Shown here: in pieces, positions 44,131-51,205 of the stretch
How positions within the stretch are numbered: position 1 is the stretch's first letter
Layout: each line of letters starts with the position of its first letter
Assembly (NCBI GenBank): GCA_002720745.1
Contig: PBJO01000007.1
Coordinates: 171,781 to 235,780, forward strand
DNA: 64,000 nt
Direction: 5' to 3'
Source of the DNA: Balneola sp.
Lineage (GTDB): Bacteria > Bacteroidota > Rhodothermia > Balneolales > Balneolaceae
The notes under the pieces: generated by a model
The model's database searches: none
The model's input: the letters and a program-made list of their open reading frames with translations, nothing else
Told to the model about the DNA's origin: nothing
Position numbers and translations under genes: made by a program

Positions 44131-44865
44131 ATGGGGTTAGAAAAAGCTACTGCAGTTGTTTTACGAACAATTGACTATCAAGAATCTAGCAAAATAATTA
44201 CCGTATTCACTGAGTCATATGGCAAGTTTGCTCTTATTGCAAGGGGTGCAAAGAAACCAAAAGGGCAACATAGCGGTATTTTAGAAGTTGGAAACACTTT
44301 AGATATAAGCTTTGCATACAAGCCAAATCGTACAGTTCAAGATTTGAGAACAGTGGACTTGGTTCACTCAGTATCTAAGCTGCGAAGAGATCTCAGAACA
44401 TGGCTTCTGTTGTTTCAAGTCTTGGAGCGAATAACCGCATTGGTTCATGAGCATGAAATCAATAAGGATTTATTCCAGCTTTTAAGCCAATTCTTGGGCT
44501 GGTTAACTAAACAAGAACAAGTACTAATACACGTGTTACCTTATATTCAAATTCGGTGTATGAGTTGCAGTGGAATTGAATTACAGCTTGAACTTACTAA
44601 AATGGCTAAGCAGTCATATTTACATATCCCGAGCGGCTTGCTTAGTGAGATATCTACTCAAACAGGAGAGAAAAAATTTAGTGAACGACAAACGAAGTTT
44701 CTCGTTGCAGTGTTATTATATAAAACAAAAGAATTTCTAACAATTGATTTAAGTAAAAATGAGTTGATTGGATTGGTTCAAAATTTGGATGCCTATTTTC
44801 ACTATCATATAGAAGGTTATAATCCACAGCGGTCTCAACAATTTTTCGATCTTTTTGTATCCTAG
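44131..44865 (+). CDS. recO: DNA repair protein RecO
   Basis: RecO (244 aa) helps load RecA onto SSB-covered single-stranded DNA in RecFOR recombination. The N-terminal OB-fold shows EKATAVVLRTIDYQESSKI and FALIARGAKKPKGQHSG, the latter an ARGARKPKS-like signature. The C-terminal part contains one CMSC pair (around residue 140) where many RecO proteins have a four-cysteine zinc site; only two cysteines are present, so zinc is probably lost. ATG 44131. Followed by the HtrA gene after a 48-base gap. Confidence 0.9.
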   Translation: MGLEKATAVVLRTIDYQESSKIITVFTESYGKFALIARGAKKPKGQHSGILEVGNTLDISFAYKPNRTVQDLRTVDLVHSVSKLRRDLRTWLLLFQVLERITALVHEHEINKDLFQLLSQFLGWLTKQEQVLIHVLPYIQIRCMSCSGIELQLELTKMAKQSYLHIPSGLLSEISTQTGEKKFSERQTKFLVAVLLYKTKEFLTIDLSKNELIGLVQNLDAYFHYHIEGYNPQRSQQFFDLFVS

Positions 44866-44913
44866 CCATTAACTTAAACAAATACACACTACATATTTAT
44901 CGTATATACATAG

Positions 44914-46482
44914 ATGGATAATATGAATATAAATCGCCGTTTAACGTACCTTCTACTATTGTTGATAGGCCTTAGCATTGGCTTTGTATGGGATAGCTAT
45001 CTAGACCGTGATTCTAAGACTATGTTTGCTGAAGTTGAATATACCTCTATTTCAAAAAGTGATAGTGTACTGATTGATGATGTGTTTCTTGAAAACATCA
45101 GTGAACGATTCCTATTTAAAAAAGTAGCCAGCAGCGTGACCTCTTCTGTAGTTTACATTGAAACTATAGTTCCGGTAGATTTGCCAGATGATGAAAATCA
45201 TAACTTTTCCGAAGATTTTTGGGATCGATTTTTACCTAAAAGTGCGCGATCAGTAGGTTCAGGTGTTATAATAAGTCAAGATGGATACATACTAACCAAT
45301 CATCACGTTATTGAAGGGGCTAGAGATGAAGGTATTCAGGTAGTGTTAAACGATAAGCGAGAATTTGAAGCATCTATTATTGGTTCGGACCCTACTACTG
45401 ACTTAGCAGTGATAAAAATACCTGCAGATAACCTTCCAGCAGCTGTTATAGGAAACTCAGATCAAGTACAAGTGGGTGAGTGGGTCATGGCTGTTGGTAA
45501 TCCTTTTAGGCTCAAAGCTACAGTAACTGCTGGCATAATAAGTGCACTGGGAAGAGACGTCCAGATAATAAATGACCGAATGAGAATCGAAAGTTTTATC
45601 CAAACCGATGCGGCAATAAATAAAGGTAATAGCGGTGGTGCCTTGGTGAATACCAGTGCTCAAATAATCGGTATAAATACTGCAATAGCCTCACAAAGTG
45701 GGAGTTATCAAGGATATGGTTTCGCTGTCCCTAGTAATTTAGCCATTAAGGTTGCCTCAGATATCATTCAATACGGGAGTGTCAGACGAGCATTAGTTGG
45801 TGTTCAGATTCAATCGGTAGACTATCGAAGAGCCTTAGAATTGCATTTACCAAATGTAGTAGGAGTGGAAATTATATCGCTAACTCCCGAAGGGCCAGCA
45901 GATAAAGCAGGACTCAAAAAAGGTGATATTGTGCTTGAGGTAAATGGATTTCCAGTGAATGCTTCTAATGCGTTGCAGGAAAGAATTGCTCTATTAAAGC
46001 CCAATACTGAAGCCCAGCTCACCATTTGGCGCGATAAAATATCCTTCGTAAGTACGGTTATTTTGGAAGAATTAGAACTTCCGGAGATTATTATAGCCCA
46101 GTCAAACTTGGAATCTAATTCACTTATGTCTCCAAAAGATAATACTATACGCCCTGAATCTTATAGCAGAGAGTTAGAGCGGGGAAGACTCTGGATTTCT
46201 ACCGATCTAGGCTTTAATATTTTAGGATTAGCTAAGCCAGAAAACCCTAATTTGTTTGATTTATATGTTCAAGAGATAGATTCAGCGTCAACTGCATTTA
46301 AACGAGGTCTTAGGGATAAGGTTGAGATTATACGTATTGATGGAGAAATAGTTCAGTCAGCTGAAGAACTACAAAAATATTTCAATAAATTAGCTGCTAT
46401 TAGGAATAAGTTAGCAGTAAAATTTGAGGTCAGAAGGGAGGATGAAAGTATACATCACATTCACATTCCATTAGATAATTAA
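44914..46482 (+). CDS. htrA: Membrane-anchored HtrA/Deg-type serine protease with two PDZ domains
   Basis: A 522-residue periplasmic quality-control protease. An N-terminal membrane segment (residues 9-26, RLTYLLLLLIGLSIGFVW) anchors it, as in DegS. Trypsin-like triad: H131 in TNHHVIEGA, D163 in TTDLAVIKI, S240 in KGNSGGALV. Two PDZ domains follow: one around GPADKAGLKKGDIVLEVNG, a second, more divergent one near residues 450-515 (SASTAFKRGLRDKVEIIRIDG). No long cleavable signal is seen. ATG 44914 or 44923 could start it. It lies upstream of a small lipoprotein gene and the amidohydrolase series. Confidence 0.92.
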   Translation: MDNMNINRRLTYLLLLLIGLSIGFVWDSYLDRDSKTMFAEVEYTSISKSDSVLIDDVFLENISERFLFKKVASSVTSSVVYIETIVPVDLPDDENHNFSEDFWDRFLPKSARSVGSGVIISQDGYILTNHHVIEGARDEGIQVVLNDKREFEASIIGSDPTTDLAVIKIPADNLPAAVIGNSDQVQVGEWVMAVGNPFRLKATVTAGIISALGRDVQIINDRMRIESFIQTDAAINKGNSGGALVNTSAQIIGINTAIASQSGSYQGYGFAVPSNLAIKVASDIIQYGSVRRALVGVQIQSVDYRRALELHLPNVVGVEIISLTPEGPADKAGLKKGDIVLEVNGFPVNASNALQERIALLKPNTEAQLTIWRDKISFVSTVILEELELPEIIIAQSNLESNSLMSPKDNTIRPESYSRELERGRLWISTDLGFNILGLAKPENPNLFDLYVQEIDSASTAFKRGLRDKVEIIRIDGEIVQSAEELQKYFNKLAAIRNKLAVKFEVRREDESIHHIHIPLDN

Positions 46483-46494
46483 TCAATATTATTC

Positions 46495-47010
46495 ATGAAG
46501 TACTTTCTATGCATCATTGTCTCCTTAATATCTTTCTATTCATGTTCTTTAACAGATACCATTACAAATCAAGATTCAATGTATTTTACATTCCCCGCTT
46601 GGTATATAACGGACGCTTATGTTAGCGATTCAACTAGTATTCATTATTTTTTGAGTTTTCAATCAGAAGATTCTACGGCTTCAGCAATTCACGGATTGAA
46701 GGAGGCAAAGATTGAGTTTATTAATAGTATAGATGACAAAGTTGAAGGAGTCAGAAATCAACAAGATGATAGGGAATTTTGGTCAAGCCCAGCTGTAATA
46801 CAGTCACTTCGAAGTAGTATATATTTGTTAATTGATGTTATGGATACCAGCAATGAAATTACCTTTAAAAAAAATGATGCCAATTATTTTGAACATTATG
46901 TACAAATGAGTCTAAAAAAAGATAAACTTATTGATGAGTTAAAAAAATCTACGGGTAATCAGCTAAGTACAAGGCAGAATTTCTGGATTAAATTAAATGA
47001 GTCCCTCTAA
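46495..47010 (+). CDS. Small putative lipoprotein, function unknown
   Basis: A 171-residue protein with a hydrophobic N-terminal export signal ending in a cysteine (ISFYSCSL), which could be lipidated, though the residues before the Cys are not ideal for a lipobox. After it comes a short region with acidic and serine-rich stretches and few aromatic residues, and no recognisable domain. ATG 46495, 12 bases after the HtrA stop, so it is likely co-transcribed. I do not recognise a family. Confidence 0.6.
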   Translation: MKYFLCIIVSLISFYSCSLTDTITNQDSMYFTFPAWYITDAYVSDSTSIHYFLSFQSEDSTASAIHGLKEAKIEFINSIDDKVEGVRNQQDDREFWSSPAVIQSLRSSIYLLIDVMDTSNEITFKKNDANYFEHYVQMSLKKDKLIDELKKSTGNQLSTRQNFWIKLNESL

Positions 47011-47084: not shown

Positions 47085-48482
47085 ATGAAGATTAACAAAA
47101 CTTTTGTAAGTATCGTAAGTCTCTTTACTATGCTAATGGTATTGATACATACACCTTTATTGGCTCAAGATGTACCTGCACATGCCATTACTAATGTAAT
47201 AGTACATATGGCCGATGGAAGCGTCGTAGAAAATTCCAATATTGTATGGAGAAATGGAATTATTGAACAGGTCGGAGTTAACGAATCCATTCCATTTGAC
47301 GCCTTCGTAATCGACGGTGGAGATTCCCTACATGTATATCCCGGACTCATTGATGGGCTGGCCACATGGGGGAGTCCAGATATACCTCGAGATTTACCTC
47401 GATTAGAAAACCCAGGAAAACCAACTTACGATCGTGCAGGGGCTCAACCAAATAGAATACCAGCTCATTATTTGAATGAGGATAAATCAATTGAAGCTGC
47501 TATGAAAGCAGGTTTTACACTAGTTTCACTTGGATTGGATGGTCAAATGTTGCCAGGGCATATACAACCCTTTAATTTGTCTGCAGCCAAGCTCACACAA
47601 GCCCATGCTTTTTCTGACCCTTTGGCATTACAAGGTAGCTTTGATACCGCACCCGGTAGTTGGGGTAGTGGTGCTTATCCATCTACACAAATGGGAGTAA
47701 TGGCTTATTTCCGTCAGCTTATGTATGATGCCTCGGCCTTACAAGAGCATATGATGTACTTTGAAAATCACTCGGATATGAGTCAACCCGAACAAAATGA
47801 TGTATTAGAAGCTCTTTTCCCGTTAGTAAATAGAGAGTACCCTCTATTTTTCGAAGTAGATTCGAAGGAAGAAATCGAACGCATGTTTAGATTACAGGAC
47901 GAATTTGGTTTTGAGGTTGTATTGGTTTCAGCAAAGGAAGCCTCGGCCTTAAGTGAAGAATTAAAGGCACGGAATATTGCTGTTTTGGCAAGTCTTGATG
48001 TCAGAGAGATGCCAGACTGGTTAGAAAAAGAGATTAAAGAAACCGAAGCCAAAGACCAGGAAAAAAGTATATCTAGTGACGATCAAGCTGATAATCAAGA
48101 TGTTAAAAAAATGGAACTCACCGAAGAAGAATTAGTTTTTCGCTTAAAACAAAAACAGGCCTGGCAAGAAGAAATAAATAATTTAGCTACATTAGTTAAA
48201 TCGGGTATTCCCACAGGCTTTACATCTGACGGTTTGAGTCCTAACGAAATACAGAAAAAGATTAATCTAGTAACAGAATATACTTCATTATCAAAGAGTG
48301 ACCTCATTGAATTAATGACGATACAAAATGCAAACATATTAGGTATATCTAACCGAGTTGGCGCTATAAAAGAGGGCAATAGTGCGCATTTAATACTTAC
48401 TGATGGCCCTCTATTTGAAAAAGGAACTAAGATTCATGTCCAAGTTAGCCAGGGTGTGATCAATGATTTTATGGAGGACTAA
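47085..48482 (+). CDS. Exported amidohydrolase-fold protein, metal site lost
   Basis: A 465-residue protein with a signal peptide (residues 1-28, cleavage near LLAQ). It has the amidohydrolase layout: N-terminal beta part with ITNVIVHMADGSVVENS, the strand-1 motif region PGLIDGLATWG, and a C-terminal DGLSPNEIQKKINLV plus the closing GAIKEGNSAHLILTDG. The metal ligands are absent: PGLIDxHxH is replaced by PGLIDGLATW (L92, T94 for the two histidines). About 20 charged residues near residues 320-345 (KETEAKDQEKSISSDDQ) form an acidic/lysine insert. Start ATG. First of three tandem paralogues; three bases before the second. Confidence 0.75.
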   Translation: MKINKTFVSIVSLFTMLMVLIHTPLLAQDVPAHAITNVIVHMADGSVVENSNIVWRNGIIEQVGVNESIPFDAFVIDGGDSLHVYPGLIDGLATWGSPDIPRDLPRLENPGKPTYDRAGAQPNRIPAHYLNEDKSIEAAMKAGFTLVSLGLDGQMLPGHIQPFNLSAAKLTQAHAFSDPLALQGSFDTAPGSWGSGAYPSTQMGVMAYFRQLMYDASALQEHMMYFENHSDMSQPEQNDVLEALFPLVNREYPLFFEVDSKEEIERMFRLQDEFGFEVVLVSAKEASALSEELKARNIAVLASLDVREMPDWLEKEIKETEAKDQEKSISSDDQADNQDVKKMELTEEELVFRLKQKQAWQEEINNLATLVKSGIPTGFTSDGLSPNEIQKKINLVTEYTSLSKSDLIELMTIQNANILGISNRVGAIKEGNSAHLILTDGPLFEKGTKIHVQVSQGVINDFMED

Positions 48483-48484
48483 AG

Positions 48485-49867
48485 ATGAAAAATATAGTAA
48501 ACATGCTACTTTTTTTAGTTGTTTTCTCGGTTGGATCCTTGGCACAAGAAAAAGGATCGGTATTAATTCAGAATGCCACTTTAATGACGATCACCGATGG
48601 TATTATTGAAAATGGTGATGTACTTATTGTCGATGGAGTCATTACAGGTATAGGTACTGACCTTAGTGCACCTATAGGTGTAGAAGTAGTAAATGGAACT
48701 GGAAAATATGTAATGCCCGGTATTATTGATGCACACTCTCACCTAAATACAGTGAGCACAAATGAAGCAAGAAATCCTGTAACTGCAGAAGTGACAATGG
48801 AGGAATCCATTAACCCTAATAGCGTCTCTATTTATAGAGCAGTAGCAGGCGGAGTGACATCTATACATTTAATGCATGGCTCTGCTAACGTTATAGGAGG
48901 ACAGGGAGAAACCCTTAAGCTTCGCTATGGAGTGTCTCAGGATGAAATGAGATTTGCAGATGCGAAAAGAACAATTAAATTTGCATTGGGCGAAAATCCA
49001 ACCCGTGTGCACGGACAGGGAAACGGAATCCAACCAAGGACACGGATGGGTGTCGAGCAAATTATAAGGAGTCATTTTGATGAGGCGCTCGATTATAGGG
49101 TAAGAAGAGAGGCTTATTTGGTAGCTAAAGAGGCTTATGAAGGAGATAGACGAGGCAGAAGAGTACCGCCAGTACCTGTTGCCAAAAACTTGAGATATGA
49201 TGTGTTAAACGATATTATAGATGGCGAGATATTGGTTCATTGTCATTCTTATCGGGCAGATGAAATTCTGATGCTCATGCGTGTATTCAATGAATATGGC
49301 ATTAAAAACTATACATTTCAGCATGCAAACGAAGCTTTTAAGGTAGCACCAGAAATTGCTAAAAATAGCGCTTATACATCAGTATTTGCTGATTGGTGGG
49401 CGTACAAATTTGAGGTTTACTATTCCACAGCCTATAATGCTACCATTTTAAATAAAAATGGAGTTACCAATAGCATCAATAGCGATAGTAATGAACTTAT
49501 CCGACATCTAAATCATGAAGCGGCAAAAACAGTAAGATATGGCGAAACTTCTGAAGCTGATGCTCTAAAGATGATTACTATTAATCCTGCTATACAGCTT
49601 GGTATCGACAAGATGGTTGGAAGTTTGGAAGTCGGTAAGCATGGAGATATAGCCATTTGGAGTGGTCATCCGCTTAGTATTTATTCTAAAGTACAGCAGA
49701 CCTACATAGATGGCAAGAAATATTTTGATATGCTCACCGATCCAGCAGATATGAGAATTGACGTGGACAGCGATGATTCCTACAGAGAAGCGGGATTTAA
49801 TACTTTCATTCAAGGTAGAGAAGAAGATGCATGTATGAGTGATGTATTTCAGTTTATTAAACAGTAA
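48485..49867 (+). CDS. Exported amidohydrolase (imidazolonepropionase-like), intact metal site
   Basis: A 460-residue exported enzyme (signal 1-20, cleavage near SLAQ). All amidohydrolase ligands are visible: HxH in DAHSHLN (H84, H86), His in LVHCHSYRADE (H252 or H254), His in FQHANEAF (H280) and Asp in SINSDSNEL (D334). The C-terminus NPAIQLGIDKMVGSLEVGKHGDIAIWSG is the family's closing element. It probably hydrolyses an amide, peptide or ring bond in the periplasm; imidazolonepropionase-like and prolidase-like subgroups share these motifs, so substrate is open. A strong GGAGGA ribosome binding site lies inside the end of the preceding gene, just before the ATG. Middle gene of the triplet. 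Confidence 0.8.
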   Translation: MKNIVNMLLFLVVFSVGSLAQEKGSVLIQNATLMTITDGIIENGDVLIVDGVITGIGTDLSAPIGVEVVNGTGKYVMPGIIDAHSHLNTVSTNEARNPVTAEVTMEESINPNSVSIYRAVAGGVTSIHLMHGSANVIGGQGETLKLRYGVSQDEMRFADAKRTIKFALGENPTRVHGQGNGIQPRTRMGVEQIIRSHFDEALDYRVRREAYLVAKEAYEGDRRGRRVPPVPVAKNLRYDVLNDIIDGEILVHCHSYRADEILMLMRVFNEYGIKNYTFQHANEAFKVAPEIAKNSAYTSVFADWWAYKFEVYYSTAYNATILNKNGVTNSINSDSNELIRHLNHEAAKTVRYGETSEADALKMITINPAIQLGIDKMVGSLEVGKHGDIAIWSGHPLSIYSKVQQTYIDGKKYFDMLTDPADMRIDVDSDDSYREAGFNTFIQGREEDACMSDVFQFIKQ

Positions 49868-49885
49868 GTAATAAGGAGTTAAATC

Positions 49886-51205
49886 ATGAAATCAAAAAAA
49901 TGGAATCTAGTTCTTGCATTACTGTTGATAGCTTCATTCACAGTGCAGGCACAAATCACTGATAAACCAAACTTTGGTAAAATTGCCATTGTAGATGCGA
50001 CCATACACACCGTTACTGATGGGACTATAAAGAATGGTGTAATCATGCTAGATGGTGAAAAAATTGGGTACGTTGGAACAGACCGCTTAAAAGTGAGTGA
50101 TGAATATCATATAATACAAGCATCTGGTAAACATGTTTATCCTGGCTTTATGGATAGTGGAACCTCGTTAGGTTTGGTTGAAATAAATGCAGTGGCAGTA
50201 ACAGTTGATAACAGAGAAGTGGGTAATATGAATCCTAATATGTTTGCATTTACAGCCTTTAACCCACATAGTGTATCTATACCAGTTACAAGAGTAAGTG
50301 GAGTTACTCATGTCATTACGGCACCTCAGGGGGGATTAGTATCGGGTCAGGCAGCTCTTATGGATTTATGGGGCTATTCACCAGACTCTATGGCTATCGA
50401 TATTACAGCCGGTATTGTGCTAAATTGGCCGAGTATACGAAGCAGAGGTCGGGGGCCTAGAAACTTAGAACAAGCCGAAAAACGGTATAAAGAGGCTATT
50501 AGAAATCTAAACAAATTGTTAGATAACGCTCGCTTTTATGAGCAAATGATGTCTGAATATGAAGCTGATGCGTTTGAAAAAATTAAGCCAGAAAAAAATC
50601 AACAATTACAAACTATGCGTGCATTGGTTAAAGGTGAAACTCCTTTAATTATTGCAGTTTCAAGTGAAAAAGATATACTTAATGCAATAGAGTGGGCTCT
50701 CCATGAGGACAATATACCATTAAATATTATATTTGCTGGAGTTGAGGAAGGGTGGAGAGTTGCAGAGCAAATTGCAAAGGCAGAAATACCTTGCTTAGTT
50801 TCCACTCTTTACACACCCGTTCGATCATATGATCATATTCATCGACCATACGAAAATCCATCAGCACTATTGAAAGCGGGAGTAAAAGTAGCTATTATGA
50901 CTGGAGAAGTAGAAAATGTCCGTAATCTACCGTTCAATGCAGGCTATGCTGCTGCTTATGGAATGGGGACGGAGGAAGCAATAAAAGCAGTCACCATTAA
51001 TCCAGCAGAAATCTTTGGTGTTTCCAGTCTATTAGGTTCTCTAGAAGAAGGAAAACAAGCCAATTTATTTATTAGCAGTGGCGATCCATTTGAACCTCTT
51101 AGCCAAATTGAGCAAGTCTTTATAAAGGGTTATCAAATTCCAATGGACTCTCGGCACACACAATTATTTGAGGAATTTCTTGACAGAGATGCTACTCAGG
51201 AGTAA
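49886..51205 (+). CDS. Exported amidohydrolase-fold protein, metal site lost (third paralogue)
   Basis: A 439-residue exported protein (signal 1-22, cleavage near VQAQ). It has the same architecture as its two neighbours: VDATIHTVTDGTIKNGVI at the N-terminus, YPGFMDSGTSLGLVEI at strand 1 and VTINPAEIFGVSSLLGSLEEGKQ at the end. The HxH metal ligands are replaced (G92 and S94 in DSGTSLG). No second-half ligands equivalent to the intact paralogue were found with confidence. A good ribosome binding site AAGGAG (49873-49878) lies seven bases before the ATG. It may bind substrate or pair with the intact enzyme. Confidence 0.75.
   Translation: MKSKKWNLVLALLLIASFTVQAQITDKPNFGKIAIVDATIHTVTDGTIKNGVIMLDGEKIGYVGTDRLKVSDEYHIIQASGKHVYPGFMDSGTSLGLVEINAVAVTVDNREVGNMNPNMFAFTAFNPHSVSIPVTRVSGVTHVITAPQGGLVSGQAALMDLWGYSPDSMAIDITAGIVLNWPSIRSRGRGPRNLEQAEKRYKEAIRNLNKLLDNARFYEQMMSEYEADAFEKIKPEKNQQLQTMRALVKGETPLIIAVSSEKDILNAIEWALHEDNIPLNIIFAGVEEGWRVAEQIAKAEIPCLVSTLYTPVRSYDHIHRPYENPSALLKAGVKVAIMTGEVENVRNLPFNAGYAAAYGMGTEEAIKAVTINPAEIFGVSSLLGSLEEGKQANLFISSGDPFEPLSQIEQVFIKGYQIPMDSRHTQLFEEFLDRDATQE

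Follow-up and report, generated by a model that had tools for sequence, protein, structure and literature searches.

The question raised by this locus is why a bacterium should encode three exported amidohydrolase paralogues side by side when only one of them carries the residues of a metal site. The window, by which we mean the whole 64,000-nucleotide stretch of DNA that was analyzed, comes from a 2.17 Mb genome of Balneolaceae type (Bacteroidota), and its closest named relatives are Balneolaceae bacterium UBA2956 and UBA1514. The three genes, here called A, B and C, and the ribosome-binding sites read from the sequence are as follows.

47085..48482, + strand: gene A, exported protein of amidohydrolase fold and putative pseudoenzyme, 465 aa; elsewhere in the Bacteroidota the N-terminal half of an A–B fusion
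48473..48477, + strand: ribosome-binding site of B (GGAGG), inside the 3' end of A
48485..49867, + strand: gene B, exported binuclear metallo-amidohydrolase of the active type, 460 aa; closest structure 3ooq
49873..49878, + strand: ribosome-binding site of C (AAGGAG)
49886..51205, + strand: gene C, exported protein of amidohydrolase fold and putative pseudoenzyme, 439 aa; E99, D108, E111 and R136 conserved among C orthologues

Each of the three reading frames starts with an N-terminal hydrophobic Sec-type signal peptide that ends, as read from the sequence, in an AQ-type cleavage site. A, B and C alike score above the curated cut-off of Pfam Amidohydro_1 and match the PDB entry 3ooq (E 1.5e-59 for B, 1.1e-30 for C and 6.8e-11 for A), and the initial annotation of three tandem exported amidohydrolase paralogues at these positions is thereby borne out. 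Profile comparison with B also places A (E 4.8e-47) and C (E 3.9e-57) in the amidohydrolase fold. Only 2 bases separate A from B and 18 bases separate B from C, a tight spacing that supports the coordinated expression proposed earlier for the trio. Since the family search yields broad amidohydrolase models only, automatic annotation would label A, B and C all as hydrolases.

The fate of the metal site was followed in sequences taken from 60 Bacteroidota genome regions, 80 named loci and further regions. Each family was aligned separately and the profiles were then aligned to each other, with 142 A, 142 B and 143 C sequences. One of the A rows, that of locus L118 (6676-9588), arose as an artefact of extraction; the 970-aa A–B "fusion" at this locus was dropped, because the frame in its upstream portion is spurious and the locus has an A gene of its own. 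The positions concerned in the window are listed below.

47358..47366, + strand: codons 92-94 of A (L-A-T), at the columns of H-S-H in B by profile alignment
48734..48742, + strand: H84-S-H86 of B, metal ligands, kept in 142/142 orthologues
48977..48979, + strand: K165 of B, probable carboxylated bridging lysine (role taken from the family), 142/142
49244..49246, + strand: H254 of B, metal ligand, 142/142
49322..49324, + strand: H280 of B, metal ligand, 142/142
49484..49486, + strand: D334 of B, catalytic or metal ligand, 142/142
50159..50167, + strand: codons 92-94 of C (G-T-S), at the columns of H-S-H in B by profile alignment

All six ligands of B (H84, H86, K165, H254, H280 and D334) are thus invariant in the family alignment, and B has what characterizes catalytic members of the amidohydrolase superfamily: the HxH motif, the Lys/Glu, two His and the Asp on a (beta/alpha)8 barrel. 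In a metal-dependent bile salt hydrolase of the same superfamily, replacement of any of the equivalent H/H/K/H/H/D ligands by alanine abolishes all activity (PMC13081902). Two cysteines of B are also widely conserved, C450 near the C-terminus (window 49832-49834; 134/142 sequences) and C253 (125/142).

A and C lack this ligand set. At the ligand columns of B the window copy of A has L92, T94, E257, S282 and D382, of which D382 is the sole ligand left, and the window copy of C has G92, S94, A257, G285 and G340 and retains none. The profile alignment therefore agrees with the initial annotation, which had assigned the HxH and the later His and Asp ligands to the middle gene only and had noted the replacement of HxH in the flanking ones; K165 is additional. 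Across the families, 89 of the 142 A sequences retain no ligand, 48 retain one, four retain two and one retains three, and for C the corresponding numbers are 98 with none, 41 with one and four with two out of 143. The HxH motif is absent from every C sequence and present in a single A sequence (1/142). This HSH-bearing A orthologue, from Christiangramia sabulilitoris (L181:4284-5969), has just three of the six ligands. The pattern of loss and retention, conserved throughout the three family alignments, is not due to chance, and judged by their residues A and C are almost certainly incapable of catalysis.

Could A and C be enzymes with a metal-free or differently liganded chemistry? The purifying selection described below could be taken in this sense, as could a set of near-invariant residues in C, namely E99, D108, E111 and R136, which follow barrel strand 1 and lie near the conserved N93/E94 of B in the alignment. 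The conserved residue set of C, however, contains neither His nor Cys in the family alignment, and the near-invariant columns of the A alignment are devoid of His, Cys, Asp, Glu and Lys. An alternative ligand set in A was ruled out, as none is found among its conserved columns. We consider such a chemistry very improbable.

That the catalytic residues are gone would also suit gene-duplication relics on their way to loss. Yet A and C are intact in all complete loci, in many families, and where dN/dS against relatives could be calculated, the values (A, 0.12-0.18; C, 0.05-0.14; B, 0.05-0.08) show purifying selection on A and C. A is fast-evolving, with a mean pairwise identity of 0.31. The window genome retains both genes at a size of 2.17 Mb, and C is found in 80 of the 98 genomes of the window's order, among them two of 1.5 Mb. 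Decay was accordingly rejected on the basis of dN/dS and conservation, and the relic explanation is hardly tenable.

The conservation of the trio as a set was assessed in 148 Bacteroidota genomes drawn evenly, with counts made by hand from match tables (B-type match, E below 1e-80; C-type match, E below 1e-40). A B-type match occurs in 85 of the 148 genomes, and every one of these 85 also has a C-type match; nine further genomes have matches, mostly to a weaker second paralogue alone. A was found in all complete loci examined. The gene order is A-B-C in 110 of 110 complete unfused loci, where the intergenic gaps have medians of 3.5 and 9 nt. A single open reading frame of 981-1142 aa spans A and B at 33 loci, and C usually follows it. 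Where B is a gene of its own it carries a strong hydrophobic segment at its N-terminus; at the junction of the fusion this segment is reduced or missing, which is what a fusion with a single signal peptide would show. The initial annotation had named ligands kept by A or C orthologues elsewhere, or a lack of conserved synteny, as findings that would speak against its proposal; what we see is ligand loss across the Bacteroidota and a phylum-wide A-B-C order. A catalytically dead paralogue conserved together with an active one is what is found in enzyme-pseudoenzyme hetero-oligomers, and the retention of the trio across the Bacteroidota, often with A and B fused, makes it probable that the two dead relatives function as subunits of a single enzyme complex. 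The pairwise distances of A, B and C are correlated (r 0.86-0.96), for which shared history alone accounts.

Linkage to C is looser in places. C is unlinked from A-B and still retained in family f21 and in genome G023; in genome G043, for example, C and A-B lie far apart on the same contig (948 kb vs 1915 kb); given f21 and G023, C might act separately. A trio that is merely co-expressed, with B working alone as a homo-oligomer and A and C having separate exported functions, would accommodate these genomes, and the support for an interaction is indirect; this arrangement is nonetheless unlikely in view of the A–B fusion, the strict co-occurrence and the pair models described next.

For these models, neighboring genes in the same frame were joined with the stop codons read as Gln and predicted as one chain with AlphaFold2, using alignments of paired and single relatives. 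The pairs modelled, in each case the cognate pair, were B-C of the window (887 aa; pLDDT 81.2, pTM 0.80) and A-B of locus L164 (910 aa; pLDDT 83.5, pTM 0.81). Such pTM values are as expected for domains that are packed rather than floating, and they lend support short of proof, since joined paralogues may copy a generic dimer of the family. Together with the natural fusion in 33 loci, these confident A-B and B-C models favor the hetero-oligomer that the initial annotation had suggested from an active gene standing between two degenerate ones. PDB fold searches used the B domain of both models, and B from the B-C model matches 3ooq over 371 residues (Z 47.9, rmsd 2.0). The next fold neighbors are prolidases, carboxypeptidases, deaminases and isoaspartyl dipeptidases, with Z about 25.

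A further alternative is that A and C are secreted proteins that bind the substrate or the product, or hand it over to B, and form no stable association with B. For C this has some appeal, given the near-invariant polar E99, D108, E111 and R136 near N93/E94 of B in the alignment and its retention in lineages where it is unlinked. Against it stand the pTM of 0.80 for the B-C model and, for A, the fusion to B at 33 loci together with a pocket in which no charged residue is conserved; on balance we think this rather unlikely.

We therefore favor, with reasonable but not complete confidence, a periplasmic hetero-oligomeric hydrolase in which B is catalytic and A and C are dedicated non-catalytic subunits that pack on B. 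Physical contact between A and B is very likely, and it is likely that C belongs to the same complex. In this hydrolase B would be the sole catalytic subunit, a (beta/alpha)8 amidohydrolase with two metals that, to judge from the family, would be bridged by carboxylated K165, and D334 would be the likely proton-transfer residue. A and C, presumably ancient paralogues stripped of all or nearly all metal ligands, would hold B in its active assembly, stabilize it or shape its substrate pocket, so that the activity of B would depend on them. The A–B fusion and the lack of polar conservation in A make A more likely an obligate structural partner, and the conserved acid/Arg set of C points to it rather than A as the one that might contribute a composite pocket or a ligand site. 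In practice, B screened for activity by itself may give a negative result, and A and C may have to be added.

The window genome encodes a second adjacent pair of this kind, D and E (G000 C6:161597-164154; L002, L256). D has all six ligands and E has the first His alone, and the same is seen in the eight D/E pairs examined, with the His present in seven of the eight E proteins. The pair recurs in many Bacteroidota genomes, and D-type matches were found in about 38 of the 148. In phylogenetic analysis each of the five types, A to E, is a single group, with support of 100/99 or better. This answers the phylogenetic check proposed with the initial annotation, in that the degenerate types are conserved as such: A and C are each one group and are ligand-poor across the Bacteroidota. 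B groups with 3ooq, apart from the paralogues, in two trees (support 96/89 and 98/96), which identifies it as a 3ooq-type protein. In the tree with prolidase-type outgroups the dead A, C and E come together (84/78), as do the active D, B and 3ooq (99/92). Because the dead types cluster together, the simplest reading would be that the metal site was lost once, long ago, and that the dead types diversified afterwards; the key branch is moderately supported and is one at which long branches meet. A bolder scenario, which we put forward tentatively and think less likely to hold than to fail, is that this one loss gave rise to three dead subunit types (A and C for B, E for D), that these make obligate hetero-oligomers throughout the Bacteroidota, and that C, through E99/D108/E111/R136, helps to build the substrate site of the active subunit. 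With its fused and split forms and the parallel D/E pair, the trio offers a natural series in which to study the passage from homo-oligomeric enzymes to complexes of an enzyme with dead subunits.

Among known proteins, the Thermotoga maritima MSB8 amidohydrolase 3ooq shares its ligand motifs with B (HSH, the K in KMAFGENP, HAH, EH and D). The prolidase/carboxypeptidase group (3n2c/3feq, Cc2672 3mtw and 2qs8) has the same fold and type of binuclear site and is more distant from B (Z about 24-27), and the tree places the prolidase-type outgroups apart from the clade of A-E and 3ooq. A precedent for the dead chains is the inactive pseudo-dihydroorotase of the Pseudomonas aeruginosa aspartate transcarbamoylase, which has an amidohydrolase fold and is required for the activity of its partner enzyme (PMC7053772). 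It resembles A and C as an inactive amidohydrolase-fold chain beside an active enzyme; however, it serves an unrelated transcarbamoylase, whereas the dead chains of the trio are exported, are of two kinds and occur with an active paralogue that shares their fold. In the open-access literature, to which our search was confined (subscription papers lay outside it), we found no description of an active amidohydrolase with dead paralogues or of the Bacteroidota trio, and no papers on 3ooq or on tandem amidohydrolases. Viral relatives of A were searched for and none were found.

From its structural neighbors B is best read as a peptidase-like hydrolase that would probably act on a small amide or peptide (a dipeptide or an N-acyl amino acid, for example); for the substrate these neighbors are a weak basis. 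Genes outside the trio provided no assignment of function, as none of the neighbors recurs across the Bacteroidota. In loci of the Algoriphagus type (L194:8691-9896, L117:4066-6219) an NlpC/P60 protein and an M28 peptidase gene lie downstream of the trio, which may be a weak hint at peptide metabolism. Upstream of the trio in the window (44131-47010) are RecO, an HtrA-type PDZ protease and a small putative lipoprotein, a block that recurs in the Balneolaceae and not phylum-wide. A partial B-like match (46% identity, residues 17-289) was also observed within an open frame of unusual length (2531 codons) in another genome (G007:C2:1912776-1913540).
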